Source: an uncultured Flavobacteriaceae bacterium (GTDB lineage Bacteria > Bacteroidota > Bacteroidia > Flavobacteriales > Flavobacteriaceae). From it: a stretch of 64,000 nucleotides of DNA. Within the stretch, counting starts at the first letter, position 1. Each line of letters begins with the position of its first letter. The DNA lies in contig CAJIYH010000004.1 in assembly GCA_905181615.1 (NCBI GenBank), forward strand, positions 62,001-126,000, given 5' to 3'. Below are positions 40,464 to 63,918 of the stretch, piece by piece. Below the pieces are notes generated by a model, which was not told the origin of the DNA, searched no databases, and saw only the letters and a program-made list of their open reading frames with translations. The position numbers were made by a program, and so were the translations under genes.

Positions 40464-42797
40464 TTAATTACATACAGAGGTAGCAATAACTGTGTAAGCT
40501 CCTTGAGATATAGTTATTGTGTTTACTAGATGGCAGAATATATATGTTTTTCCTTTAGGAACATAAACTTGATAACTATTACAATCACAGCCTTGATAAC
40601 TAAATAATACACCATCACTTCCTCCAACGATTGTACTTTGTGTACAAGGTGAGCAGGTAATACCTATATTAACAGTAACAACATTACTAAATAAAGAAGC
40701 ATCTTTTGCTTTGTATGTAAAACTATCTCCTCCGTTCATAACTCCGTTCTGAAGATAACTAAATGTCCCTCCTGGATTTAAAACCAAAGTTCCAAAGTTT
40801 GGACCTGTAACTAGTGTTGCGGTTAAGCTATCAGCATCTGGATCTGTATCATTACTCAGAATGTTATTACCTCCATTACTTAATAGAGTTGTTGTTCCTC
40901 CTAATCCAATTGTAATGCTATCAGGGTAAGCAACAGGTGGATCGTTTGTAGGCGTTACATTAATGGATACAGAAGTAGCTAATCCATACCCTTTTCCATC
41001 ATATGGAATATAGGTAAAACTGTCAGTGAAGTTTTCTGTTCCGTCATGAGTATATGAAAAGCTACCATTTGAATTTAATGATAATACACCAAATATAGGA
41101 TCAGTTCCAATAGTTGCAGTGAGTATAGCAGCATCTCCACCATTAGTATCTGTATCATTAGCTAAAACACTAGTTACTGCATTTGTAGTTGTAGTTGCTG
41201 TGCCTCCTTCTAATAAAGCAATGTTTTCGGTTACACCCACAGGCAAATCATTTATGTATATGGTTACGGTTGTTGTGTTTCCAATACTAAAGTTATCTCT
41301 TGGGCTATAAGAGAAAGTATCAGTAGTAGTTCCGCTTCCATCATGAGTATATGTAAAGTTACCGTTTGATAAAAGTGTTAATGTTCCGTTTATTGGACCT
41401 AGAACTTCAACAGCGGTTATGGGATTGCTTTCCGGATCATTGTCATTAGATAGAACCGAATTAGTCGAGCCGTCATTAAGCACATTAACACTCTCGCCAG
41501 TGGGAACAGAAATAAAATCTTCTACTCCATTTGGAGCATCATTTGTTTGAGAAATACTGACTGTAATTAAATCATCTACAGTACAGCTGACATCTCCATC
41601 GGAAACTACTAGACTAATGAAAGTAGCACCATTTTGATTTTCTAAAAAATCAATAACTAAAGCAGTGGCAGTTATTGATGTAGCAATCATAGTTGGGTTA
41701 CCAATATTTGTAGAATATGTTAGTGTATCAGTATCAACATCTGAGAAGACATTAGCTAAAGGAATAAAGAAATCTGGATCATCTTCAGCTACACTAACAT
41801 CTGCTATTGGGTTGTCTAGAGTTGGACAATCATTTACAGAATTAACCGTATAGCTGATCGGTTGGTATAATTCACAAATTCCGTCACTAATTGTAATTGT
41901 TCCGGTTGTACTTCCATGCCTATTTAGAATTCTTGAGTAAGATAAACGATTATTAGCTGGGTTAATATAAATATTAACGATCTCAGGATTAGTGTGCGTT
42001 ACAGTAAAAGTATGAGTAGCATTATCAGGATCATTTATAATACTCTGTAGGTTAGTATTCCAAAACCAAGGACTAAAATCTTCATTAGAAGTGGGTCCGT
42101 TAATTTGGCTTGCAACTGCCGAGTTATTCCATACAGGGCAGTCGTTAACGGGATTAATAGAAATTGTTACAGTTACCGTATTTCCATCAGAAAACCCATC
42201 ATTGGTCTTATATTGAAAAGTATCAGTAGTAGTTTCAGATCCATCGTGCGTATATGAAAAGGTACCTGATGATAATAGACTTAGTGTTCCATTGAATGGA
42301 CCGTTACCAATAATAACAATTGCTGTTATTGGATCACCTTCTGTATCAGTATCATTTGCTAATAATGAAGTGGCATTATTAGTTGTAATTGTAACTGTCC
42401 CCCCTTCATTGACAAATAATGATTCAGTTACAGTTACCGGTGGATCATTTACAGCAGTTACAGTAGCAACAAAAACTTCTTGAGAAGAACAAGTACCATC
42501 TCCATCACTTGCATTTATGGTTATAGTTGCAACTCCAGTTTGATCGTCAATGTATTCTAATGTTAGAGTATTTGTATTAAGTGTCACAGTTACTAAACCG
42601 GTATTGTCATTTGTGAAAGTATAATTCAAAACATCACCCTCTGCATCACTAAACAAGTTAGATATATTAAATACATTATTGGCGGCATCTTCTTGAACTG
42701 TAAAGTCAGCAATTGGATTGGCTACCACAGGACAGTCGTTAACAGGTGTTATGTTTATTGTGACAGTTACCGTATTTCCATATGAAGATTCCATCAT
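40464..42797 (-). CDS. tandem-95/cadherin-like surface protein, C-terminal fragment
   Basis: 777 codons forming the downstream half of a giant protein cut by a frameshift at about 42783-42800. It consists of eight or so Big/tandem-95 domains (motifs LANDTDTE, GTFSYTHDGSETTTD, NDPPV) and a short Cys-rich end (CSPCTQSTIV, CDCNSYQVYV). It begins inside a domain, with no signal peptide of its own, so it is unlikely to be made separately. No recognisable type IX C-terminal sorting domain was found. Confidence 0.8.
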   Translation of the reverse strand: MMESSYGNTVTVTINITPVNDCPVVANPIADFTVQEDAANNVFNISNLFSDAEGDVLNYTFTNDNTGLVTVTLNTNTLTLEYIDDQTGVATITINASDGDGTCSSQEVFVATVTAVNDPPVTVTESLFVNEGGTVTITTNNATSLLANDTDTEGDPITAIVIIGNGPFNGTLSLLSSGTFSYTHDGSETTTDTFQYKTNDGFSDGNTVTVTISINPVNDCPVWNNSAVASQINGPTSNEDFSPWFWNTNLQSIINDPDNATHTFTVTHTNPEIVNIYINPANNRLSYSRILNRHGSTTGTITISDGICELYQPISYTVNSVNDCPTLDNPIADVSVAEDDPDFFIPLANVFSDVDTDTLTYSTNIGNPTMIATSITATALVIDFLENQNGATFISLVVSDGDVSCTVDDLITVSISQTNDAPNGVEDFISVPTGESVNVLNDGSTNSVLSNDNDPESNPITAVEVLGPINGTLTLLSNGNFTYTHDGSGTTTDTFSYSPRDNFSIGNTTTVTIYINDLPVGVTENIALLEGGTATTTTNAVTSVLANDTDTNGGDAAILTATIGTDPIFGVLSLNSNGSFSYTHDGTENFTDSFTYIPYDGKGYGLATSVSINVTPTNDPPVAYPDSITIGLGGTTTLLSNGGNNILSNDTDPDADSLTATLVTGPNFGTLVLNPGGTFSYLQNGVMNGGDSFTYKAKDASLFSNVVTVNIGITCSPCTQSTIVGGSDGVLFSYQGCDCNSYQVYVPKGKTYIFCHLVNTITISQGAYTVIATSVCN

Positions 42798-44196
42798 AAT
42801 GCTCGATATGAAAATGAATCAGTAGTAGTTTCAGATCCATCGTGCGTATAAGTAAATGATCCAGTTGTCGATAAAGCAAACACAGCTCCATTAATAGGAT
42901 TACTAACTAGATCAGCAGTTAGGTTGTCTGACTCTGTATCAGTATCGTTAGCTAATACTGAGGTGGCATTATTAGTTGTGGTTGTAGCGGTACCCGCTTC
43001 AAGGACACTGATTATTTCTGTAGTTGCGACAGGTGAGTCATTAAAAGCAGTTACAGTAACAACAAAAACTTCTTGAGAAGAACAAGCACCAGCTCCATCA
43101 CTTGCATTTATGGTTACAGTTGCAACTCCAGTTTGATCGTCAATGTATTCTAATGTTAGAGTATTTGTATTAAGTGTCACAGTTACTAAACCGGTATTGT
43201 CATTTGTGAAAGTATAATTCAAAACATCACCCTCTGCATCACTAAACAAGTTAGATATATTAAATACATTATTGGCGGCATCTTCTTGAACTGTAAAGTC
43301 AGCAATTGGATTGGCTACCACAGGACAGTCGTTAACAGGTGTTATGTTTATTGTGACAGTTACCGTATTTCCATATGAGATTCCATCAAATGCTCGATAT
43401 GAAAATGAATCAGTAGTAGTTTCAGATCCATCGTGCGTATAAGTAAATGATCCAGTTGTCGATAAAGCAAACACAGCTCCATTAATAGGATTACTAACTA
43501 GATCAGCAGTTAGGTTGTCTGACTCTGTATCAGTATCGTTAGCTAATACTGAGGTGGCATTATTAGTTGTGGTTGTAGCGGTACCCGCTTCAAGGACACT
43601 GATTATTTCTGTAGTTGCGACAGGTGAGTCATTAAAAGCAGTTACAGTAACAACAAAAACTTCTTGAGAAGAACAAGCACCGTCATTTGCATTTATGGTT
43701 ACAGTTGCAACTCCAGTTTGATCGTCAATGTAATCTAATGTTAGAGTATTTGTATTAAGTGTCACAGTTACTAAACCGGTATTGTCATTTGTGAAAGTAT
43801 AATTCAAAACATCACCCTCTGCATCACTAAACAAGTTAGATATATTAAATACATTATTAGCGGCATCTTCTTGAACTGTAAAGTCAGCAATTGGATTGGC
43901 TACCACAGGACAGTCGTTAACAGGTGTTATGTTTATTGTGACAGTTACCGTATTTCCATATAAAGCATTATCATAAGCTCGATATGAAAATGAATCAGTA
44001 GTAGTTTCAGATCCATCGTGCGTATAAGTAAATGATCCAGTTGTCGATAAAGCAAACACAGCTCCATTAATAGGATTACTAACTAGATCAGCAGTTAGGT
44101 TGTCTGACTCAGGATCAGTATCGTTAGCTAATACTGAGGTGGCATTATTAGTTGTGGTTGTAGCGGTACCCGCTTCAAGGACACTGATTATTTCTG
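42430..44196 (-). repeat. three near-identical 0.59-kb tandem repeats inside the giant gene
   Basis: A marker decamer (ATTATTTCTG) recurs at 43011, 43602 and 44187, giving periods of 591 and 585 bases (a 6-base difference is two codons in one copy). Each unit encodes two Big-type domains of about 195 residues. The copies differ by only a few bases over most of their length, so recent duplication, recombination or assembly error is possible here. Confidence 0.85.
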
Positions 44197-46807
44197 AAGT
44201 TGTAACTGGTGGGTTATTAGGAGATGTAAAGGAACCTGTGTAGACACCTCTTCCATAAGATGCAGCAACGACACGATTATCCATTGCAGAGACACCTCTA
44301 AAATCCATATCATAAACAGGAACGTCACTCATTCCATTATATGCTGGTACCCAAGTAGGATTTGCGTTAGTGAAATTGGCTGTTCTCCATATCCCAAGTT
44401 CCGTACCAATAATTACCTCATCATCAACATAAGGGTTGTTTAAAATTGATAATACAGGAAAGTCAGGGAAGTCACCTTCTTTATTCGAGCTGGTTGTAAA
44501 GCCGTCGTCTGTGAAACGAATATTACTATTTATTCCATAATTATAATATGTTACATAAATATCATCTTCTGTTTCCCCAATATGAATATCTGAAACACTT
44601 CCAGTTTGATTATAAACCGAAGTAATTGTGGAAGCACCATTTGCTCCTGCATTTGTTATTTTAAGTACTTCTCCATCTGAAAGACCTGCAAATAATGTGG
44701 TTGTATTTGTAGTATGTCTAGAAACCTCTAGGGCTGTGACATGTCTAGTTCCTGAGAAATTTATTAAAAAATGTTGAATAGTCCCATCTCTTTCTAGACC
44801 TGTAATTACTCTGATTTTACCATTTCCTGCACAAGAAAAATAGACATCTCGATTAGAATCTAAAGCAGCAGGGTTAATAAAATCTCCCTCGTTAGAAGGT
44901 AATGACAAAGAGTTTGATAAATTAACGTGAGGTTGAGCAACTCCACCAGCCGTAAAACCTGCCCTTTGAACTGAATTATTATAAATGTAATTTGATATAT
45001 AATAGTCACCTCCTACTTGATCAAACACAGTAGCAGCACCATCACCACCTTGAACTTCTGTTCCATTTGTTTTATTATTAGCAGATGCTATTATTGACCA
45101 AGTCCCATTATCTTGAGTTCCACCAACAATATAATCATTACCTGCAAAATCAGGGGGAGATTGAGCAACAGTATAAAATTGTAAAGTAATTAATTCTTTT
45201 TCTCTATCACCGAAAGTAGATGTATCAGATGCTGTTGATAAACTAGAAGAATATGCAACACCTCCATCATTTACTACAATAGCCTTATTTGGATCCCCAG
45301 GTTTAAAATATAAACCGTGTTGATCAGCATGAACAACAGAATAAGGTTTACCAAAAAGCCCCGGATTAAATTGTGACCACCGGGTAATTTGACTCCATGA
45401 TGTTCCACCATTCTGACTTCTAAACCAATCAATTCCTCCAACGTATAATATATCATCATTAGTAGGATCTACTTCTATTTCAAGATCATAAAAAGATTGA
45501 CCTCTAGTAAAATCGTAGTTTGGAATTCCTTGGTCAGAATCAATAGGAGGTTCTACATAAGTAAAAGTCGAGAAGTTGTCAGTAGTTTTATAAATTATAG
45601 GTATTCTGGTATAATCTGCAGTTGAACTACTCGTACTGGAAGTCTCAATTAATACATAATGGGTATTTGTATCTGTTTGACTTGGTGCTATTTCAGTTCT
45701 GTGCCTGGTAGTAGCGGATGTGGTTGGAAACGCAGGGAAAGTAGGTGTGGCTTGGGTAAAGTTAGTCCCATCATCGCTATAAAAAAATCGGCCACCTTTT
45801 ACTCCACCCCAATAATTACTTGAAGTAGTACTTAGCCATATTCTATTAGAGATCGCTTGAACTTCAAGATCATTAATTTCATCAACTTGTGATCCATTAT
45901 TTACAGATGTAATTTGGGTAAATGTTGATCCAGCATCAGCTGATTTAAAAAGTCCATATGTAAATGGATCTAATCCAGTTGATGATGATCTACTGTGCCA
46001 AGTTGTTCCAATTGCAGCAAATACTTGAGCATCTGTTCCTGTATTATTATCATGATCATAAAGAATAATATCATTTACTGCGAAGTATCCTTCAACCCTA
46101 GTGTAACCACCAGAAAAGGTAGTTGTTACAGTTGTAGATTGCCCTCTTCCAAAAACTAGATTCCAATTTGAGCCACCATCAATTGATTTGTATATTCCAT
46201 TTCCACTTGCATCTCCACCCGTGTAACTCTCACCAGTTCCAGCATAAAGAACAGATGTATTATTTGGATCTTGAACTATTACAGATATTGCTAAATTACC
46301 AGGGACACCTATAACTCTTGTCCAGACTTGTCCTACATCTGTAATGTCATTATTCTTCCATAATCCTCCACTTACTCCACCAGCAATGACTCTAGTTCCA
46401 CCTAAATCTGATTGATCCCATACTGCAGCCCGCGATCTTCCAGCTGCATTTTTTGGGCCAATTTCATACCATGGGGTTGTTGCACTTTGACCAGGAACAG
46501 CATATCTATCAGAATAAATATCTCTTTGTATCTGTTCCTGTATATCTAATTTGCTTTCATAATTATGTTCACCAGTAGCTGGATCTATAGTTAAATCATA
46601 TATCTGCTCATTAAATTTATTTGGAGGAAGACCTTTTGCAAGTCGATCTTTTTTATTTAAAAGTACGTCCTCTTTGAAAGGACTATTTTCTAGAAAGTGT
46701 TTATGAAGCTCTTTAGGATTCATACCTTCATCCATCACAAAAACAAATAAACCCATTGATAAAATCATCAATATATTTAATAAAAAAGGGTTTTTGGTAT
46801 TGAACAT
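42794..46807 (-). CDS. sortilin/BNR-type beta-propeller plus tandem-95 protein, N-terminal fragment
   Basis: 1337 codons. Signal-anchor-like start (NILMILSMGLFVFVM), a pro-like segment to about 90, then a large beta-propeller region (about 100-870) with sialidase/VPS10-type blades (YKSIDGGSNWNLVFG, FKSADAGSTFTQI, WFRSQNGGTSWSQI), then two and a half tandem-95 domains before an early stop (SFSYRAL). Compared with the copy at 43375-43395, two single bases are inserted (A after TATGA, T after ATCA), which shifts the frame. The intact protein would be about 2,110 residues, probably a secreted adhesin or polymer-binding protein. Confidence 0.85.
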   Translation of the reverse strand: MFNTKNPFLLNILMILSMGLFVFVMDEGMNPKELHKHFLENSPFKEDVLLNKKDRLAKGLPPNKFNEQIYDLTIDPATGEHNYESKLDIQEQIQRDIYSDRYAVPGQSATTPWYEIGPKNAAGRSRAAVWDQSDLGGTRVIAGGVSGGLWKNNDITDVGQVWTRVIGVPGNLAISVIVQDPNNTSVLYAGTGESYTGGDASGNGIYKSIDGGSNWNLVFGRGQSTTVTTTFSGGYTRVEGYFAVNDIILYDHDNNTGTDAQVFAAIGTTWHSRSSSTGLDPFTYGLFKSADAGSTFTQITSVNNGSQVDEINDLEVQAISNRIWLSTTSSNYWGGVKGGRFFYSDDGTNFTQATPTFPAFPTTSATTRHRTEIAPSQTDTNTHYVLIETSSTSSSTADYTRIPIIYKTTDNFSTFTYVEPPIDSDQGIPNYDFTRGQSFYDLEIEVDPTNDDILYVGGIDWFRSQNGGTSWSQITRWSQFNPGLFGKPYSVVHADQHGLYFKPGDPNKAIVVNDGGVAYSSSLSTASDTSTFGDREKELITLQFYTVAQSPPDFAGNDYIVGGTQDNGTWSIIASANNKTNGTEVQGGDGAATVFDQVGGDYYISNYIYNNSVQRAGFTAGGVAQPHVNLSNSLSLPSNEGDFINPAALDSNRDVYFSCAGNGKIRVITGLERDGTIQHFLINFSGTRHVTALEVSRHTTNTTTLFAGLSDGEVLKITNAGANGASTITSVYNQTGSVSDIHIGETEDDIYVTYYNYGINSNIRFTDDGFTTSSNKEGDFPDFPVLSILNNPYVDDEVIIGTELGIWRTANFTNANPTWVPAYNGMSDVPVYDMDFRGVSAMDNRVVAASYGRGVYTGSFTSPNNPPVTTSEIISVLEAGTATTTTNNATSVLANDTDPESDNLTADLVSNPINGAVFALSTTGSFTYTHDGSETTTDSFSYRAYDNALYGNTVTVTINITPVNDCPVVANPIADFTVQEDAANNVFNISNLFSDAEGDVLNYTFTNDNTGLVTVTLNTNTLTLDYIDDQTGVATVTINANDGACSSQEVFVVTVTAFNDSPVATTEIISVLEAGTATTTTNNATSVLANDTDTESDNLTADLVSNPINGAVFALSTTGSFTYTHDGSETTTDSFSYRAFDGISYGNTVTVTINITPVNDCPVVANPIADFTVQEDAANNVFNISNLFSDAEGDVLNYTFTNDNTGLVTVTLNTNTLTLEYIDDQTGVATVTINASDGAGACSSQEVFVVTVTAFNDSPVATTEIISVLEAGTATTTTNNATSVLANDTDTESDNLTADLVSNPINGAVFALSTTGSFTYTHDGSETTTDSFSYRAL

Positions 46808-56317: not shown

Positions 56318-56376
56318 CAAGTTTTAAAAACAGTTTTGTACATTGTATTCATAAATTAGATATTATGAAAAAGCTA
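56318..56376 (+). repeat. leader/signal-peptide cassette, copy 1
   Basis: Copy 1 of a repeated leader: CAAG, an A/T-rich core containing AACAGTTTTGTACATTGTAT, ATAAATTAGATATT, then ATG-AAA-AAG-CTA. 47 bases from CAAG to the ATG of the secreted protein at 56365. It differs from copy 2 by only a few bases. Confidence 0.7.
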
Positions 56377-56880
56377 CGTCTTCTTTTACTGATAATGCCT
56401 GTTTTAGGGACAGGTTATCTAAACGCTCAGAAATTATCTAAAAATAGTGCATTTGATATATTGATGAAATGGGAAGGCAAATGGAAAAATAATACAGTTT
56501 TTGAAGAATCCGTTTGGATCACTGAAAGTGTTGAAACTCGCGGTACAACTGAGGCAAATTTAATTCTTTCCAATAATTACCTTGAAATAATGGTTTATAA
56601 TGATAGTGCGAGTAAATATATTATTTGTTATGACCAAATGTCAAGTCAATTCAATCGCTGGGAATTTAAAAGCGACGGCAGTAATACTTTTTGGACAGGA
56701 AAATGGAATAAAAGTGAGAATACAATGACCTGGAGCTTTATAGATTTTTCAAACTCGGGTATTAGCGGTAAAATAATTGAAAATTTTAAGTCGGATGAAA
56801 TGATTATAACCAGAATTATTATGAAAGATAAGATTGGAAAATCATTACTTAGAATTAATTCAACAAAAGAGAAAACTTAA
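56365..56880 (+). CDS. secreted protein, DUF1579-like
   Basis: 171 residues with a clear signal peptide (LRLLLLIMPVLGTGYLNAQ). The body (LMKWEGKWKNNTVFEES, YDQMSSQFNRWEFKSDGS, FWTGKWNKSENTMTWSF) follows the beta-strand pattern of DUF1579-type lipocalin-like proteins. Function unknown. It is headed by copy 1 of the repeated leader cassette. Confidence 0.7.
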   Translation: MKKLRLLLLIMPVLGTGYLNAQKLSKNSAFDILMKWEGKWKNNTVFEESVWITESVETRGTTEANLILSNNYLEIMVYNDSASKYIICYDQMSSQFNRWEFKSDGSNTFWTGKWNKSENTMTWSFIDFSNSGISGKIIENFKSDEMIITRIIMKDKIGKSLLRINSTKEKT

Positions 56881-56957
56881 ACAATAAAACATATTATCCC
56901 CCTGCTTAGCAACTTAACTAGAGGCATAACCTATTCAGTAAGTTCAGATTATGAAGA

Positions 56958-57014
56958 CAAGCTTTAAAAACAGTTTTGTACATTGTATTGATAAATTAGA
57001 TATCTGAAAAAACT
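56958..57014 (+). repeat. leader/signal-peptide cassette, copy 2
   Basis: Nearly identical to copy 1. At the expected start the ATG has become CTG (57004-57006), and the following codons (Lys-Lys-Leu-Leu-Leu-Leu) run to a stop before the BspA-like gene. Upstream, the frame TCA-GTA-AGT-TCA-GAT-TAT-GAA ends in a stop inside the cassette. Confidence 0.68.
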
Positions 57015-57062
57015 ACTTCTACTATTATTTCCTAATCCAACTTTAGATAAAAACCCCTTTAA

Positions 57063-57686
57063 ATGAATTTTTTTTTCATAGCTCTTACATTCTTATTTTT
57101 ATCTTCCTGTGAAGCTAAAAATGAATCTGATGTAAATCCGGATTTTGATGAATTATCCCAAGAATACACCACAAGAAAAGAAGTCCCAGTTGATGAAAAT
57201 GGAGTTGTACAAAACCCAATATACTTAGGTGACAATGGTGTTACGGTTAAAGCAAGAGATTGGGCTTTCGTGGGTGATTCTGGAATACTTAATGATGTAG
57301 AGTATATAATAATTAGTAGACAACAATTAAGAAGTAAAATAGTAAATGGTGAGGATATAACAAAAATATGCACTTCAAGACTTTTTTATCTTAGTGGTAT
57401 GTTAAGAGGTATGCATTCCTTTAATCAAAATATTAGTCATTGGGATACATCAAATGTAATCGATATGAATCTAATGTTTTATGGAGCTACTTCATTCAAT
57501 CAAGATATAGGAAGCTGGGACACTTCAAATGTAATTAATATGGAGGGTATGTTCATTGACGCAAATGTATTCAATCAAGATTTAACAGGTTGGTGTGTTA
57601 CTGATATCTCAGCTGAACCAACTAACTTTTCTACTTCTTCTGCCCTAACTGACGCCAACAAACCTATTTGGGGAACTTGTCCTTAA
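57063..57686 (+). CDS. BspA-type (DUF285) surface lipoprotein
   Basis: 207 residues. Short signal with lipobox FLFLSSC (Cys16), a 90-residue spacer, then three DUF285 repeats of about 25 residues (SGMLRGMHSFNQNISHWDTS, LMFYGATSFNQDIGSWDTS, GMFIDANVFNQDLTGWCV). These repeats occur in leucine-rich-like surface proteins. The gene lies 57 bases downstream of the damaged copy 2 leader, so its expression signal is unclear. Confidence 0.82.
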   Translation: MNFFFIALTFLFLSSCEAKNESDVNPDFDELSQEYTTRKEVPVDENGVVQNPIYLGDNGVTVKARDWAFVGDSGILNDVEYIIISRQQLRSKIVNGEDITKICTSRLFYLSGMLRGMHSFNQNISHWDTSNVIDMNLMFYGATSFNQDIGSWDTSNVINMEGMFIDANVFNQDLTGWCVTDISAEPTNFSTSSALTDANKPIWGTCP

Positions 57687-57749
57687 TAAATAAAAACACT
57701 GAAAATAACTGCATCAGTATGGATTACAGAGCATCATTATCATTATTAT

Positions 57750-57988
57750 TTAGCTACAAGAGCCAGTGCTAAAGCTCTCTATCCCCCAGACACTCGCTTC
57801 ACATTTATTTGAATAAGTTTTATTGTTGCATCCACAAACAGGAGCATATTCTTTGGTACAGGCTATTTCTTCCCTATCCTCTATTTCTCTACAATCGTTT
57901 TCTTTAAGTTCTCTATAATCGTTTTCTTTTTTTTACAGCTAAAAATAGAAAAAGCGGTTAATAGGAAAATAATTTGTTTCATTTCCAT
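57750..57988 (-). pseudogene. Kazal-type protease-inhibitor lipoprotein, frameshifted in an A8 run
   Basis: On the minus strand an ATG at 57988 or 57982 opens a lipoprotein signal (IIFLLTAFSIFSC). A run of eight A follows the Cys; adding one A joins it to a frame ending at 57750 that encodes a Kazal domain with ACTKEYAPVCGCNNKTY, SNKCEAS and a final Cys, six cysteines in all. Kazal domains inhibit serine proteases. As read, the protein stops after about 30 residues. Confidence 0.68.
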
Positions 57989-58016
57989 ATTTAGATTAGA
58001 CACAAGATAACTAAAA

Positions 58017-58074
58017 CAAGCTTTGAAAACAATTTTGTAAATATGACTAATTAATTAGAGATTATGAAAAATTA
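58017..58074 (+). repeat. leader/signal-peptide cassette, copy 3
   Basis: CAAGCTTTGAAAACAATTTTG is followed by a diverged middle and TTAGAGATT-ATG-AAA. 47 bases from CAAG to the ATG of the cupredoxin pseudogene. It is the most diverged of the five copies. Confidence 0.6.
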
Positions 58075-58460
58075 CTTACCACTACTTATTAGTTTTGCGT
58101 TTCTATCTTGTGATTTAGATGATTACACCCCTGATGCGCCATCATCTACTTACTCAATTTCTTTAACTGCATAATAGAGATTATACCCTTGTAGGAACTG
58201 ATGCCAATGGAGAAGTTAGCGGTAATGAACCTTCAATAACAATTAGTCAAGGAGATACAATTAGCTTTGGTTTAAACGCTGCTAGTCATCCATTTTATAT
58301 CAATACAGTTCAAGGTAACGGTACAGATAATCAGTTAAGTGGCATAACTAATAATGGAGCTACAAATGGTGATGTTCGTTGGACACCTTCAGCTGCTGGA
58401 ACTTATTATTACCAATGTTCACCTCATAATGCTAAGTATGGAACAATTACAGTTCAATAA
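58064..58460 (+). pseudogene. cupredoxin-like lipoprotein, frameshifted
   Basis: The first frame (MKNYLPLLISFAFLSC lipobox, then DDYTPDAP...SISLTA) stops at 58172. Removing one T there continues it as NRDYTLVGTDANGEVSG into a plastocyanin-like domain: HPFYINTVQG (first His ligand) and YYYQCSPHNAKYG (Cys and second His) before the stop at 58460. The usual axial Met position is Lys/Tyr, so the copper site would be altered even if the frame were intact. Confidence 0.7.
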
Positions 58461-58497
58461 CAGACATATCTTCTTCAGTTTGTTTAGATAATGAAAA

Positions 58498-58556
58498 CAA
58501 GCTTTGAAAACAGTTTTTTTACATTGTTTTGATAAATGAGATATTATGAAAAGGCT
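58498..58556 (+). repeat. leader/signal-peptide cassette, copy 4 (orphan)
   Basis: CAAGCTTTGAAAACAGTTTTTTTACATTG, GATAAATGAGATATT, then ATG-AAA-AGG-CTA-CTT. The ATG frame stops after eight codons, so this copy heads no gene. 48 bases from CAAG to ATG. Confidence 0.65.
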
Positions 58557-58699
58557 ACTTTTTTTTCTGTGATTATATTAAATATAATCCAGACTAATGG
58601 AATTAAATTAAGTGCAAAAACAAATATTCCAACTGTTAAAGAGGGGATGCCTGTAAACACTTCAACTTCACCTATAAAAAAGTATAACACAAAACCCAT
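58544..58699 (-). CDS. possible membrane-peptide remnant
   Basis: The minus strand has a 51-codon frame with two hydrophobic stretches (MGFVLYFFIGEVEV; TVGIFVFALNLIPLVWIIF) and a basic end (TEKKVAFS). The frame is open for about ten codons before the ATG and continues the first span, so the true start may be missing. It ends inside cassette copy 4. It is either a small membrane protein or the tail of a lost gene. Confidence 0.35.
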   Translation of the reverse strand: MGFVLYFFIGEVEVFTGIPSLTVGIFVFALNLIPLVWIIFNIITEKKVAFS

Positions 58700-58733
58700 A
58701 ATTGTAAATAGAAGGGTTTTTTATGTGATATTA

Positions 58734-58856
58734 TTAAATGTTTGTGAATGTGTCACAAGTGTTAGAAGCTGTTACTCCTATTTGGTGCACAGAACATCTG
58801 TTTTCAGTATGGTTAACACAGTTAACACAAGAATTGCTTAAAGATAAATTTTCCAT
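58734..58856 (-). CDS. 40-residue cysteine-rich protein
   Basis: ATG at 58856 gives 40 residues with C-x2-C near residues 10-13, a later Cys, His and Cys (RCSVHQIGV) and a C-terminal TCDTF. The pattern CxxCxN...CxxH...TCDxF looks like a small zinc site and resembles short Flavobacteriaceae proteins that I cannot name. The same frame is open upstream to 58952 but that part is hydrophobic and unrelated in composition. It overlaps a weaker forward frame. Confidence 0.5.
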   Translation of the reverse strand: MENLSLSNSCVNCVNHTENRCSVHQIGVTASNTCDTFTNI

Positions 58857-58936
58857 AATAATATTGAATTTATTAAAAGTAATAAATATTATTACGCAAA
58901 TAGCTGAAAAGCAGTAGTTTATATTTAGATTAATTA

Positions 58937-59140
58937 AAAATAAGTGGAACATTATTTTGGATTGTTAGGTTCTATCTATTGGGATACGCTAACCCAACTA
59001 TTAAGGCTCACTACCAAGACTGGGAATGGGAAGAGTTAAAGGAACAAGTGGATGCAGCACATTCAAAAGTATTAAACGAATACAAAGCAAAAAAAATCTA
59101 CAAAGCTATTTACAGTAAAGGCAAAGAATTAGGTATTTAA
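58937..59140 (+). pseudogene. C-terminal remnant, possibly of a tyrosine recombinase
   Basis: An open frame with no start codon ends at 59140. It contains LLGYANPTIKAHY, whose LG-x-A-N-x(6)-Y spacing resembles the last motif of tyrosine recombinases (LGH...Y), and a long charged helix (EELKEQVDAAHSKVLNEYKAK). Only the last ~65 residues survive. The recombinase assignment is tentative. The rest of 58857-59412 (about 550 bases) holds this remnant, a terminator and the repeated 5' region of the next gene. Confidence 0.35.
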
Positions 59141-59230
59141 AAATACTTATCCAGATAGTCAACTTAAAAGTGCAGTAAAATACCAATTACACCTACTGCA
59201 TGACAAGCAGAATTGATATATTATAATTAA

Positions 59231-59254
59231 AGCCCTTCTTTTGAAGGGTTTTTT
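59231..59254 (+). terminator. intrinsic terminator
   Basis: Stem AGCCCTTC / GAAGGGTT with a TTTT loop followed by a T run; about 90 bases after the remnant stop at 59140. Confidence 0.75.
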
Positions 59255-59295
59255 ATGCATTATAATTTATTTTATCCAAGTTTTATATAAAAAAA

Positions 59296-59412
59296 GACTT
59301 GCCTTTGTTTATGGATTAATAGTTAAAATCATTTAACTTAATATAAAACCTTGTGTTTTGCAATTAATTTAATTAGTTTTCAAGCATATTATTAACCATA
59401 AATATTTTTAAA
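59296..59412 (+). repeat. second duplicated 5' region, copy 1
   Basis: Shares with 60793-60897 a reading-frame end (GAC-TTG-CCT-TTG-TTT-ATG-GAT-TAA, Asp-Leu-Pro-Leu-Phe-Met-Asp-stop), a T/A-rich spacer and an almost identical block CTTGTGTTTTGCAATTAATT before the next ATG. It covers the tail of a lost gene plus the leader of the following one. Confidence 0.7.
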
Positions 59413-60103
59413 ATGAAAAGAATTTTATTAATTACAGCCTTATTTAGTTTTGTGTTTACTAATGCACAATACTGTTTGTTTTTAGATTTTAAAGCAGAGC
59501 AGCCTGAAATGGTAGCTTCTTCTCTAAAAGGGATGATGGAAACTGAATGGGGGAAAAATATCCAAGGGACAAAGTCTTTATTTGCTTACTTACCTAACGG
59601 AACAAATGAATCTACTCACTCTCTTCAAATTTGTTTTCCAAATGAAGCTGCATTTGAGAACTTCTACGCATCTTGGAATCAGTCTCCTGACGCACAATTG
59701 TTTTTTGAAAAAATGGGCAAATTTTCAAAACAAATATCCGAATCTTTAAACACACCAATATGGTACAATGGAAAAGATTGGGCTAATGATAACGTATTTA
59801 TGCTTTATCAAATGGAAGTATCAAATCCTGGATTATATCTTAAGGAATTTCAAAGTTTCTCTCTAAAAATAGCGAAAAAGTTGGGTTATGAGAGACAATT
59901 CCTTTGGCATCGCTTTTCCTATCTTGGGAAAAAATAGTGATTTCACACATTTTGCTTGGATAGGTTCGCCCGATATTAAAACAGCTTTGTCAAACACTAA
60001 AAGAATGTTTTCTGACCCATTGTTTGCGGATTTTTCTAAAAAAGTTTCTGGCTTAAGAAAAGTCGTTAATACAACGATGTCAGTCCGAATAATGGATTAT
60101 TAA
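59413..60103 (+). pseudogene. secreted protein of unknown function, frameshifted by loss of GA
   Basis: The first frame has a signal peptide (LLITALFSFVFTNAQ) and about 150 residues, then runs out of register at 59890-59900. The second frame (to 60103) continues as DNSFGIAFPILGKNSDFTHFAWIGSPD. Restoring a GA in the GAGAGA run joins Gly-Tyr-Glu-Arg to Asp-Asn-Ser and gives about 230 residues. Two similar halves with a FAYL/HFAWIGSP-type strand hint at an internal repeat. No family recognised. Confidence 0.68.
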
Positions 60104-60138
60104 AACATTAAGTATAATATAAAGTCTGTTGCTCGAAC

Positions 60139-60168
60139 AGCCTTCACGTAAAGTGGGGGCTTTTTTTA
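60139..60168 (+). terminator. intrinsic terminator after the 59.4-kb gene
   Basis: AGCC...CAC / GTG...GGCT hairpin followed by seven T. The AAAGTGGGGGCT arm recurs, slightly changed, at 56275 and 62458, so it belongs to a small local family of hairpins. Confidence 0.55.
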
Positions 60169-60310
60169 TTTTTCAATTACACTTAAATTGCACATAAGCA
60201 ATCTATTTACTTTGTCGATTAACACTAGTTAAACCGTCTAAATCATCAAAAGACGTCAGATAATGAAAGCAGGCAGATTCTTCGGAGTTCCTTTTTCGTT
60301 TTGTGTGTAT

Positions 60311-60580
60311 TTAACTGAAACCATTTCTTGATTCCCACATCATTAAACCACATCCAATCATTATTATTATAATAATTACTATTGTCTTTAATATTCTACT
60401 AAAGTAATTTTTCTTATTCAAGCTATATAGTATCCAGACAGGGTAAATAAGGAAAAAAGGAATATCGTGCCACTCAACTGACTGAGGATTAACTATCAAC
60501 ATTATAAGACCACCTAGAAGAAAAACAACAGCTGAAATAAATCCTACCGTGTCTTGATGTTTTTTAAGTTTTTCCCACAT
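60311..60580 (-). CDS. small three-span membrane protein
   Basis: 89 residues. Basic start (MWEKLKKHQDTVG), then hydrophobic segments at about 14-30, 42-54 and 65-82. No family recognised. Between 60104 and 60310 only the terminator is visible. Confidence 0.6.
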   Translation of the reverse strand: MWEKLKKHQDTVGFISAVVFLLGGLIMLIVNPQSVEWHDIPFFLIYPVWILYSLNKKNYFSRILKTIVIIIIIMIGCGLMMWESRNGFS

Positions 60581-60618
60581 ATTGGTTGGTTTTGGTTATT
60601 TAAAACTAACAAAAATTC

Positions 60619-60815
60619 TTCACCCTTAGTGAATTCTTCTCATCCGAAGGAGGCTTCTTAGGCACTCTAAAGATGCTTGATAAGTATAATGTAGTTAGTA
60701 GATATTAGACACCTTAGAACAGCCCACCTTTTATTGGTACAACACTTCCGTACTATACACCCAAATTAAAACAAGAGGTAGATGAGGTTGAAGACCTTCC
60801 TTTGTTTATTGATTA
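60619..60815 (+). pseudogene. decayed gene tail
   Basis: One frame keeps a protein-like composition through two stop codons (60706, 60715): EGGFLGTLKMLDKYNVVSRY, then NSPPFIGTTLPYYTPKL and EVDEVEDLPLFID before its final stop. The last residues match the tail before the gene at 59413 (DLPLFMD), so it seems to be a second decayed copy of the same gene end. Confidence 0.45.
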
Positions 60816-60897
60816 AGGTTAAAGTAATTTAACATAAACTTGTGTTTTGCAATTAATTTAATTAGTTTTAAATATTATTAATCATAAATCAATTAAA
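60793..60897 (+). repeat. second duplicated 5' region, copy 2
   Basis: Counterpart of 59296-59412: GAC-CTT-CCT-TTG-TTT-ATT-GAT-TAA, then CTTGTGTTTTGCAATTAATT and a diverged end before the ATG of the NTF2-like gene. Confidence 0.7.
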
Positions 60898-61401
60898 ATG
60901 AAAAAATATTTAATTATTGCATTAGCAATGACAACACTTATTTCTTGTAACTCAAATACCGATATGTCATTATTTAAAGAGAATAAAGAAATAGCTAAAA
61001 AATATCTTGCTTCATATGAATCGCCAACAGACTATGAAAATTTTGTTTCTATGACCGATGAAAAAATTGAGCATCAATCTCCAATGTATGGAGCTGGAAT
61101 CGTTGGATATGAAAAAGTTTTAGAGCAAGGGAATTTCTATATGTCAAACTTTTCGGATGTTTCTTTTAATGACGCGAGATGGCTTCCGGGTGTTGATGAA
61201 GAAACCCTTAAGGCAGATGGTAGCGTAAGAGTTTACGGTACTTGGAAAGGGGTTAGTAATGCTTCAGGGAAAAGTTTTTCAGTTGACGGTTATCACTATT
61301 TCGTAATAAAAGAAGGAAAGATTGTTCAATCTGGTGACTTTTTTGATGCTACTGGAATGGTTATGTCTGTTCAACCAGATTCTGAAGAAGAAGTTGAATA
61401 A
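60898..61401 (+). CDS. NTF2/SnoaL-like lipoprotein
   Basis: 167 residues. Lipobox TTLISC (Cys17). The body (LASYESPTDYENFVSMTDEKIEH, GYEKVLEQGNFYM, VRVYGTWKGVSNASGKSF, YHYFVIKEGKIVQSGDFFD) has the helix-plus-curved-sheet pattern of NTF2-like/SnoaL domains. Function unknown. It shares its 5' region with the gene at 59413, which encodes an unrelated protein. Confidence 0.78.
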   Translation: MKKYLIIALAMTTLISCNSNTDMSLFKENKEIAKKYLASYESPTDYENFVSMTDEKIEHQSPMYGAGIVGYEKVLEQGNFYMSNFSDVSFNDARWLPGVDEETLKADGSVRVYGTWKGVSNASGKSFSVDGYHYFVIKEGKIVQSGDFFDATGMVMSVQPDSEEEVE

Positions 61402-61515
61402 TTTCACTTTTAAAGAACAACATATATTATAATTATTAACGTCACTAATTAAATTTAGTGGCGTTTTCTTTTAAACCATCGGCATATCCTCTTCAGTAAG
61501 TTCAGATAATGATAA

Positions 61516-61573
61516 CAAGCTTTGAAAACAGTTTTGTATATTGGATAGATAAATTAGATATATGAAAAAGCTT
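61516..61573 (+). repeat. leader/signal-peptide cassette, copy 5
   Basis: CAAGCTTTGAAAACAGTTTTG, TATATTGGATAGATAAATTA, GATAT then ATG-AAA-AAG-CTT. 46 bases from CAAG to the ATG of the alpha/beta hydrolase. Upstream, TCA-GTA-AGT-TCA-GAT-AAT-GAT-AAC precedes a stop that lies within the cassette, as in copies 2 and 4. Confidence 0.7.
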
Positions 61574-62410
61574 CTTCTCCTTTCGTTATTAATAACGATA
61601 TCATTAAATGCTCAAGAAAAAATACTCCTAGACTATCAAAAATGGGAATTAAAATCATTCAAAGAAAATAGGGTTTTTATTTCAGAGCAAGAAGGTGTAT
61701 ATCTAGATAATATATCTGAACCTGAAATGTACTTGTATAAAGCCAAGGGAGATTCTATAACAGATAAGGCTATGATAATTTGTCCTGGAGGAGCACTTCT
61801 TTTTAGTGCCTATGAAAAAGAAGGAGTTAAACTAGCTAAAAAACTAGCTTTAAATGGAATTACTGCAATTGTCTTGAAGTATAGAACATATCCAAGAAAA
61901 GGTTCTGTAATAGACTGGGCTGGAACATTATGGGGTAAACCTCAAGTGGTAATAGATAGTGCCAAAACAATACTACCTTATTCTTCAAAAGATGCCTTAA
62001 ATGCTATTGAGGTAATAAGGAATAACGCGTCAAAATACAATATCAATCCTGATAAAATTGGACTGATGGGATTTTCTGCCGGTGGAGCTGTTACTATGGA
62101 AGCTGCATATACTTCAATCTCCAAAAATCAACCAAATTTCATTGCGCCTATTTATCCTTGGATGGATATTGTTGGAGGACAAAAGGTTCCAAGTAATAAA
62201 CCTCCTGCATTTATTACCTGTGCTAATAATGACGGATGGAAAGAGATTCCTACTTCAAGTGTTCAAATTTACCAGGACTGGATTCAAGCGGAAGCAAAAG
62301 TAGAGCTTCATATGTTTAGTGAGGGGGGTCACGGATTTGGGATGAATAAAATAAATTCTCCAGTTGATAGATGGTCTCAATTATTGGTCGATTGGATATT
62401 AGCTTTATAA
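61562..62410 (+). CDS. secreted alpha/beta-hydrolase (esterase/acetyl-xylan-esterase-like)
   Basis: 282 residues. Signal peptide (LLLLSLLITISLNAQ), oxyanion-type ICPGGALL near 73-80, nucleophile S172 in GFSAGGA, acid D224 (CANNDGW) and H257 (GGHGFGMN). This is the layout of secreted carbohydrate esterases of the BD-FAE/Axe type. It is headed by leader cassette copy 5 and is the most intact gene of that set. Confidence 0.88.
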   Translation: MKKLLLLSLLITISLNAQEKILLDYQKWELKSFKENRVFISEQEGVYLDNISEPEMYLYKAKGDSITDKAMIICPGGALLFSAYEKEGVKLAKKLALNGITAIVLKYRTYPRKGSVIDWAGTLWGKPQVVIDSAKTILPYSSKDALNAIEVIRNNASKYNINPDKIGLMGFSAGGAVTMEAAYTSISKNQPNFIAPIYPWMDIVGGQKVPSNKPPAFITCANNDGWKEIPTSSVQIYQDWIQAEAKVELHMFSEGGHGFGMNKINSPVDRWSQLLVDWILAL

Positions 62411-62461: not shown

Positions 62462-62656
62462 GTGAGGGCTACAAAGCATCAATACCACTTTACCTTTATT
62501 TATTCAATAACTGGCATATCCTCTTCAGTAAGTCCAGGGAATTGTGAATCTATTATAGTAGTAAACGGAAATATTCAGTACTTCGTTAAAGGACAGAGAG
62601 TTAAGCCATGTGATTACTATAGATTAAGAAGTGAGATAAGAAAAAGGTTGCAATAA
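62462..62656 (+). pseudogene. short C-terminal gene remnant
   Basis: A GTG-started frame whose second half reads like real protein (SIIVVNGNIQYFVKGQRVKP, then a basic helix CDYYRLRSEIRKRLQ). Its first half (GCATCAA...CCACTTTACC...TCTTCAGTAAGT) repeats sequence found ahead of cassette copies 1 and 5. Probably the end of a gene whose other copies have been lost. No function can be assigned. Confidence 0.35.
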
Positions 62657-62702: not shown

Positions 62703-62749
62703 TACTTGGTAAGGAAGAGGTCGGCAGTTCAAATCTGCTCGCTGGCTCA
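62703..62749 (+). tRNA. partial tRNA-Thr (GGU), 3' half only
   Basis: From 62706 the sequence has exact tRNA 3'-half geometry: anticodon loop TTGGTAA (anticodon GGT), 3' stem GGAAG, variable loop AGGTC, T-stem GGCAG, loop TTCAAAT, T-stem CTGCT, acceptor strand CGCTGGC and discriminator T. No matching 5' half (GCCAGCG, D-arm) exists upstream, and the 5' anticodon stem is mismatched. This is a truncated tRNA gene, as left at integration sites. Confidence 0.65.
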
Positions 62750-62758
62750 ATGATATCA

Positions 62759-63809: not shown

Positions 63810-63918
63810 AAAATAAAAGTATAATTACTAAAGAGGATATGCTTACGGTTTAGTTAACTATTAGAGTGCAATTAGCCAATACTGAGAAGAGCGGTAGTAA
63901 TCTCCTGAAGAAATTAAT

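Follow-up and report, generated by a model that had tools for sequence, protein, structure and literature searches.

Why should one leader of about 47 bp stand in front of genes that have nothing else in common? The window analysed here, a stretch of 64,000 nucleotides from an uncultured Flavobacteriaceae bacterium, raises this question towards its right-hand end, where an earlier note had described five such copies. All five were recovered at those places: with at most 3 mismatches allowed, the leader has 5 matches in the window, all on the + strand, against a mean of 0.04 and a maximum of 1 in 100 shuffles. The constant 46-48 bases claimed between the CAAG motif and the start codon hold for four copies (47, 47, 48 and 46 bases for the leaders at 56318, 58017, 58498 and 61516), but not for the leader at 56958, which has CTG at the expected ATG position and thus a damaged start. 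A search with the leader consensus, which had been proposed as a check, gave 30 matches in the 2.19-Mb genome, 26 of them within a few clusters, and none for the reversed pattern, while matches with 0-2 mismatches were confined to the same genus among the 60 genomes searched. On these counts we rejected the leader as a general promoter; viral contigs held no exact leader match, and comparison by eye with the Bacteroidetes consensus gave no clear answer on a promoter motif. The leader is probably a 5' gene start, comprising promoter, untranslated leader and signal-peptide codons, that is common to many array genes of this genus.

By their Pfam results the genes behind the window leaders show no homology to one another, which bears out the claim that they are unrelated (Table 1); neither of the two outcomes named beforehand as refuting the proposal was thus found. 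A BspA-like gene does follow the damaged leader, the gene read as an esterase is an alpha/beta hydrolase, and the leader at 58498 opens only a few codons, with no gene behind it, as had been said. The label DUF1579-like for the gene behind the first leader is unsupported, since that gene has no Pfam match at E 0.01. A cupredoxin-like region is present behind the leader at 58017, but the reading frame that begins at 58064 does not stay open across it. Similarity behind the leader had been thought to end with the first signal-peptide codons; elsewhere in the genome it can span the whole signal peptide, beyond its extent in the window.

Table 1. Leaders, sites, genes and relics in the right-hand part of the window.
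Feature	Position	Strand	Remarks
Leader copy 1	56318..56364	+	Behind block C, without site
Gene behind leader 1	56365..56880	+	Signal-peptide-like start, no Pfam family at E 0.01
Site 1 (recombinase 3' end copy; block B)	56916..56947	-	84% over 32 bp to site consensus, E 1e-5
Leader copy 2	56958..57004	+	Starts 10 bp after site 1; damaged start codon
DUF285/BspA-like gene behind leader 2	57063..57686	+	Pfam
Leader copy 3	58017..58063	+	Adjoins divergent short ORF, without site
Site 2, diverged	58453..58487	-	77% over 35 bp, E 3e-4; directly 3' of the stop codon of the cupredoxin-like region
Leader copy 4	58498..58545	+	Starts 10 bp after site 2; frame of a few codons only
C-terminal relic, second tyrosine recombinase type (Arm-DNA-bind_5)	58979..59140	+	21/44 identical to L054:765-2063, E 2e-14; family taken from the Pfam result on the L054 protein
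Array gene, SnoaL-like but below Pfam cut-off	60898..61401	+	Leader of a different kind
Site 3	61471..61505	-	91% over 35 bp, E 6e-9; 0 mismatches to block B pattern
Leader copy 5	61516..61561	+	10 bp behind site 3
Alpha/beta hydrolase, unit gene	61562..62410	+	Abhydrolase_3, DLH; N-terminal signal-peptide-like stretch by eye
Site 4	62503..62538	-	83% over 36 bp, E 1e-6
Weak site-like sequence, opposite orientation	63825..63852	+	82% over 28 bp, E 9e-4

Three of the five window leaders start 10 bp behind a sequence of about 36 bp (the site). Translated from the opposite strand, the site reads '...PELTEEDMPVV-stop', which is how a tyrosine recombinase gene ends at its 3' side. The window has five sites, which are also found without a leader; among 100 random window 36-mers, none had at least 4 other matches (mean 0.09, maximum 3). 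The SVxxDxxxKL-stop tail noticed earlier before three leaders is real and is this same site, an element distinct from the leader. Sites 3 and 4 enclose a unit of one gene, the hydrolase. Across 82 array sites from four lineages, information content peaks from about -20 to +23 and is low outside, and some sites contain at least 26 recombinase codons.

It is quite improbable, in our judgement, that the leader itself spreads, by gene-start duplication or by new gene bodies being joined on after a single signal peptide, and that its proximity to the site is secondary. Such spreading would suit a leader that is found behind several unrelated blocks, with rightward similarity that often stops at the start codon or the signal peptide end, and a duplicated unit in genome G279 that ends at a start codon rather than a site; moreover, for 11 of the 20 leaders examined no site lies within 130 bp, and the tie between the two is therefore not strict. 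Against this, a fixed gap of 9-10 bp separates site and leader in 6 of the 20 leaders, far above chance (0.09 for random placement, maximum 2 in 1000 trials), and in the lineage of G176 and G363 a different shared leader stands at a constant distance from the site found there. The earlier proposal of a portable leader before unrelated genes, or of the conserved part of a diversifying array, holds in both its parts, but the boundary of the array is the site and not the leader. We conclude that the region is probably part of an integron-like cassette array in which the 3' end of the recombinase gene itself is the putative docking site.

The recombinase matches PF00589 with 40.8 bits (cut-off 27.1), and R207, K235, R298, H321 and Y330 are invariant among 12 sequences, with box II reading YSFRH. 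In a structural model of modest confidence (pLDDT 72.6, pTM 0.49), its nearest folds are Tn1549 Int, lambda Int and XerA, with IntI at rank 9. Tandem small genes with a repeated site beside a tyrosine recombinase gene would also be expected of a classical integron or a CALIN (an attC array without integrase), but that identification is very hard to sustain: the protein scores 18.7 bits against a cut-off of 265 for the integron integrase model TIGR02249 and 48 against 220 for its best model, NF040815 (Xer/integron integrase), the array begins at the gene's 3' end, within the reading frame, and the sites have no stable hairpin (z +0.66 to +1.64 against shuffles for sites alone, +0.59 to +1.26 for blocks B+D). 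Blocks B and D had been considered as attC arms, which they resembled; in folding, however, both B+D and the site alone were no better than shuffles, and block D turned out to be where a distinct small protein gene ends. By eye the site showed no clear inverted repeat, and Rfam at gathering thresholds returned only one tRNA from five array loci.

The window's genome assembly contains recombinase relics and no intact copy, so either its array is static or a copy that falls in an assembly gap serves it. Between genera, conservation of the codons at the recombinase end does not clearly exceed that of the remaining gene (0.59 versus 0.50-0.54), and synonymous-site selection there, considered as a candidate, was not clearly raised. 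In an end-repeat control, repeats of XerC- and XerD-like gene ends were not found, the Arm-DNA-bind_5 recombinase end gave 2 weak extra matches (E 5e-5 and 0.004) and the end of the window relic 1 (E 0.004). Viral contigs hold four relatives of the recombinase at 23-36%; six distant relatives, namely these four and two from another family (with flanks of only about 1.5 kb), showed no direct repeat of their own ends and one weak inverted match, and plasmids and phages gave no match at 1e-5. A recombinase beside the C6 array was rejected as a dedicated integrase, being XerC-like by size, motifs and neighbours (named by eye). Alongside the recombinase of locus L058, a tRNA 3' fragment was seen by eye.

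Beyond the window, direct repeats of the recombinase gene's 3' end follow its stop codon at 6 of the 20 loci tested (22 copies, in several genera), against 4 upstream repeats in 3 loci; 11 of the 20 recombinase loci have no own-end repeat, one locus could not be tested, and inverted copies occur at L132. A site census gave 147 matches in 29 of 397 family genomes (reversed control, 4), with at least 3 sites in 16 genomes of 10 genera. In 3 of 5 genomes, the recombinase end nearest to the array sites is the one from that genome; in one genome it ties, and in another it comes second by 0.1 mismatch. One to three ORFs of at least 60 aa lie between sites; genes between repeats are mutually unrelated, and the Pfam families are diverse in 7 of the 10 between-site genes scanned. 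We read the array as a series of small units, usually holding one or a few genes that run antisense to the recombinase more often than not; between the units stands a site of about 36-43 bp, a copy of the final ~12 codons of a tyrosine recombinase gene that is dedicated to this role. Pairwise extension of 5995 site pairs was too lax for AT-rich DNA and gave an unclean histogram, and only high-scoring pairs were used. Two species (G000 and G013) share a 515-bp unit at 97.3% identity. The match begins 10 bases ahead of one site, runs into the following site and breaks off inside it, and the flanking sequences are unrelated; the 767-bp unit duplicated in G279 at 99.1% starts 6 bases into a site. 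Site-bounded units thus appear in different surroundings, once in two species.

Most of these loci come from metagenome-assembled genomes (MAGs), and one (L141) has a helicase fused to half a recombinase, as might be seen if the arrays were assembly artefacts of metagenome bins. We give this almost no weight, as multi-copy sites recur in 10 genera, and Ca. Arcticimaribacter forsetii (G010), whose single contig is described as the complete genome of a cultured isolate (PMC9122927), also has the leaders and block B. A weightier alternative, which we nevertheless regard as unlikely, is that the sites are decayed recombinase ends left by accretion of small tRNA-associated islands, with cargo swapped by homologous recombination and without cassette-wise site-specific insertion. 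It would accommodate the tRNA or tmRNA genes in 11 of the 25 array loci scanned (a raw count with no background rate), the longer recombinase relics at L108, L110, L111 and L112, the sites that retain many recombinase codons, the relic of a second recombinase inside the window and the lack of repeats at about half of the recombinase loci. It is at odds, however, with relics that start from the C-terminal end almost without exception (16 of 17 fragments reach residue 323 or beyond, and the remaining one adjoins such a piece), with about 40 conserved bp that have sharp edges in four lineages, with the excess of repeats on the gene's 3' side, and with unit starts or ends that fall inside the site.

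Returning to the cassette array, its joints are copies of the recombinase gene's last codons, and the enzyme therefore appears to dock new genes there. In this mechanism the recombinase would join the site of a circular cassette to the site that ends its own gene, every insertion would rebuild the recombinase C-terminus from the incoming copy, and recombination from site to site would shuffle and lose cassettes. Because each cassette would carry a copy of the recombinase end, enzyme and site would stay matched, and a docking site within the recombinase reading frame would explain that matching. As the leader often lies immediately behind the site, a unit could carry its own start for expression and secretion wherever it is inserted, and the common leader would account for the way in which genes, once captured, could be expressed and secreted immediately. 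If this is correct, small-genome marine flavobacteria have an integron-like gene capture that IntI/attC searches would miss, and gain or loss of single units would show breakpoints inside GAAGAAGATATG. No comparable system is described in the literature we searched, a search that had most subscription papers and bioRxiv preprints outside it and is not proof of unpublished status.

Several known systems share parts of this arrangement. Archaeal SSV-type integrases also have their attachment site within the integrase reading frame; SSV-type integration splits the integrase gene, whereas insertion here would rebuild the gene end. Tycheposons are tRNA-associated elements of small-genome marine bacteria, with tyrosine recombinases and variable cargo, but their cargo units are larger, and recombinase 3' ends are not known to be repeated between these units. 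With integrative and mobilizable elements and tRNA islands, which accrete as whole elements at the end of a target gene (PMC5704250), the arrays share a tyrosine integrase, a tRNA neighbourhood at some loci and build-up at one place, but here each repeated piece comprises one or a few genes, and the end of the integrase gene itself would be the target. The dif/pdif modules of Acinetobacter are gene modules with short recombination sites, clustered in arrays (PMC12907356); their sites serve the housekeeping XerC/XerD pair, whereas the site here comes from the end of a recombinase gene distinct from that pair, and XerC- and XerD-like gene ends are not the ones repeated. A further likeness is to the integron, defined in PMC8618304 as an array of small units bounded by a repeated site after a tyrosine recombinase gene, with mostly one-gene units and unrelated cargo, and a repeated-site unit array adjoins the recombinase gene in 6 of 20 loci here. 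In contrast to integrons, the recombinase is not IntI, an attC-like fold is absent, the platform is the 3' end of the recombinase gene rather than an attI beside it, and the genes run antisense more frequently and may have a leader of their own. On balance we favour a third route to gene-cassette arrays beside integrons and dif modules, in which a tyrosine recombinase would attach cassettes to the end of the frame that encodes it, each cassette bringing a copy of that end and often a leader and signal peptide, and by which small-genome ocean flavobacteria may gain genes, many for secreted proteins, singly.

The earlier note described five copies of a leader of about 47 bp in the window, and all of them were found at the places described. 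Across the source assembly (2.19 Mb in 7 contigs, 95.5% complete), the leader has 30 matches at up to 3 mismatches and its reversed pattern none; 26 of the 30 are clustered, on contigs C1, C3, C4, C5 and C6. Matches at 0-2 mismatches were confined to the same genus among the 60 genomes searched, and one leader-bearing genome of that genus, G010, belongs to Candidatus Arcticimaribacter forsetii (NS5 marine group). In the accessible portion of the paper on this organism (PMC9122927), the words integrase, cassette, mobile and genomic island are absent.

Aligned at their core, the leader copies are preceded by several discrete contexts, blocks A to E. In pairwise comparison of 29 copies (406 pairs, the weak match L028 left out), the leftward limit of similarity is 0-1 base from the core for 167 pairs, 4-9 bases for 117 and 11-14 for 67. 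Rightward similarity frequently stops close to the start codon; 10 of the 406 pairs lose it at 75-85 bases, where a signal peptide MKKLLLLLLLVPMVSFGQ ends. A 35-bp pattern for the signal-peptide DNA, at up to 3 mismatches, has six copies in this genome; of 59 other genomes 3 contain it, each a member of the genus. From its position, the leader is a putative promoter; as a guess, it may come to stand before new genes when their bodies are captured downstream of the signal peptide. A second repeated leader, together with the other features, is located in the table.

Block B has 21 matches in this genome at up to 3 mismatches (reversed pattern 0), and it follows a stop codon, a terminator-like sequence or another block. 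Its opposite strand codes for ...PELTEEDMPVV-stop, extended in longer copies to NVSLTYLRGLEIPELTEDDMPVV-stop, the C-terminus of a 346-aa tyrosine recombinase that is intact in locus L058; a 348-aa relative in G011 and a recombinase with a premature stop in G005 end alike. The proposed cassette boundary, a site of about 36 bp corresponding to block B, was sought as GAAGANGATATGCCTRTGGTTTA (up to 2 mismatches), which gave 147 matches (recombinase gene ends counted) spread over 29 of 397 genomes, against 4 for the reversed control; 16 genomes from 10 genera hold at least three matches each. Fetched loci yielded 110 distinct sites, and the information content of 82 array sites from four lineages is high across about -20 to +23 and low beyond. 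Array sites are nearest to their own genome's recombinase end in three of the five genomes having both, the remaining two being one tie (a single site) and one second place by 0.1 mismatch. Flanking genes run antisense to the recombinase in 131 of 191 calls, as they do in the window, and the codons at the recombinase end show no clear excess of conservation over the remainder of the gene. Block A gives HYLTSFDDLDGFTGVNRQMK-stop on its reverse strand and could be the terminal part of another mobile gene; the fetched loci contain no full-length source of it.

Leader and site are spaced non-randomly across nine array loci of this genome (the diverged window site at 58453, below the cut-off, left out): 6 of 20 leaders start 9-10 bp behind a site (random mean 0.09, maximum 2 in 1000 trials) and 9 of 20 lie within 130 bp of one (random mean 0.45, maximum 3 in 1000 trials). 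Several units in G176 and G363 carry another common leader, with its start codon 27 bp from the site core; a site-adjacent shared leader therefore occurs in at least two lineages.

Coordinates of additional blocks and neighbouring features (window, or fetched locus by L-number)
Feature	Location	Remarks
Block A, further tail before leaders	window about 60180-60268; L043:17779-17872; L045:5492-5586	
Block D	window 60730-60813 (weak match, E 0.09); L108:3974-4195	C-terminus of small protein MPRPKGSPNKVT...EDLPLFID; in L108 beside tRNA
Second repeated leader	window 59294-59430 and 60791-60916	81% over 138 bp; before two other array genes; reappears in part in L017
tRNA-like half	window about 62705-62752	resembles 3' half of tRNA by eye; near site 4
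Tandem repeats	window 42133-44219	long, near-identical (86-92%); within two large neighbouring repeat-rich minus-strand ORFs
ORFs near recombinase genes	L107:7549-7932 (-); L054:2754-3032 (+)	HUH replication initiator-like by eye

This genome has two phage-integrase-family genes above the Pfam cut-off, XerC- and XerD-like (named by eye), and holds the site-type recombinase only as C-terminal relics. After setting aside two full genes, one gene with a stop and one XerC match, 17 relic fragments remained, several of them weak (E up to 0.31); 15 extend to residue 345 or 346 and 16 to residue 323 or beyond, while the 17th adjoins a piece of that kind. Random decay of whole genes would not leave this bias. 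Six loci (L134, L135, L136, L140, L145 and L146) have altered recombinase ends, as expected if ends are exchanged, although decay would give the same. Of 397 Flavobacteriaceae genomes, 16 carry homologues (E up to 1e-30), and a phylum-wide draw gave the recombinase at 1e-40 in 2 of 395 genomes. Box II of tyrosine recombinases is usually HxxR; here it reads YSFRH in 12 of 12 aligned sequences (alignment A1), with tyrosine at the histidine position (residue 295 of the L143 recombinase). Separately, one open frame at L141 (G332:C51) carries a helicase-like N-terminal part ahead of the recombinase's C-terminal half, either an assembly chimera or a real fusion.

Repeats of each gene's own end (last 70 bp plus 12, E up to 0.01) were sought at 20 recombinase loci. 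Downstream of the stop codon there are 22 direct repeats in six loci (L058, L132, L137, L142, L143 and L146), and upstream of the gene four in three (L133, L138 and L146); L132 has four distant inverted copies besides. Eleven of the 20, L107 with its premature stop among them, gave no direct repeat, and at L147 the test ran off the contig. Six distant recombinase relatives lack direct repeats of their ends. As controls, the ends of the XerC- and XerD-like genes are not repeated either, in loci that contain 29 matches to the site consensus. For the 20 recombinase loci, windows of 82 bp drawn at random from the same contigs mostly gave zero repeats; a few equalled the gene end, with up to 8, because arrays are themselves repetitive.

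When genomes are compared, recombinase genes are similar up to the site, and many pairs diverge 0-3 bases behind it; other pairs match further past it, but with low scores. G000 and G013 share a 515-bp unit at 97.3% identity that starts 10 bases ahead of one site and extends into the following one, within which the similarity stops after GATGATAT; upstream of the unit stands a 26-codon recombinase remnant in G013 and block D in G000. G279 has a 767-bp unit in two copies (99.1%); they start 6 bases into the site and stop where a gene whose signal peptide is similar has its start codon, so that this end falls at a leader and not at a site. In L146 and L143, the units between sites hold one to three ORFs each; most in L146 run antisense to the recombinase, and those in L143 are mixed. 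Among ten of these genes scanned against Pfam, matches were to a beta-lactamase-family protein, an HNH nuclease, a restriction-enzyme N-terminal domain, an ion channel, a PEGA protein, an S24 peptidase and a Y-family polymerase, and three had no family.

tRNA genes lie near 11 of 25 loci, and the tRNA-like half in the window is possibly an attachment remnant. Taken together, the sequence comparisons support well the reading of a real, unusual cassette-array system. Such an array would work like an integron, from which it differs in failing two defining tests, IntI and attC; dif modules, in the part of the published account available (PMC12907356), likewise use short sites.
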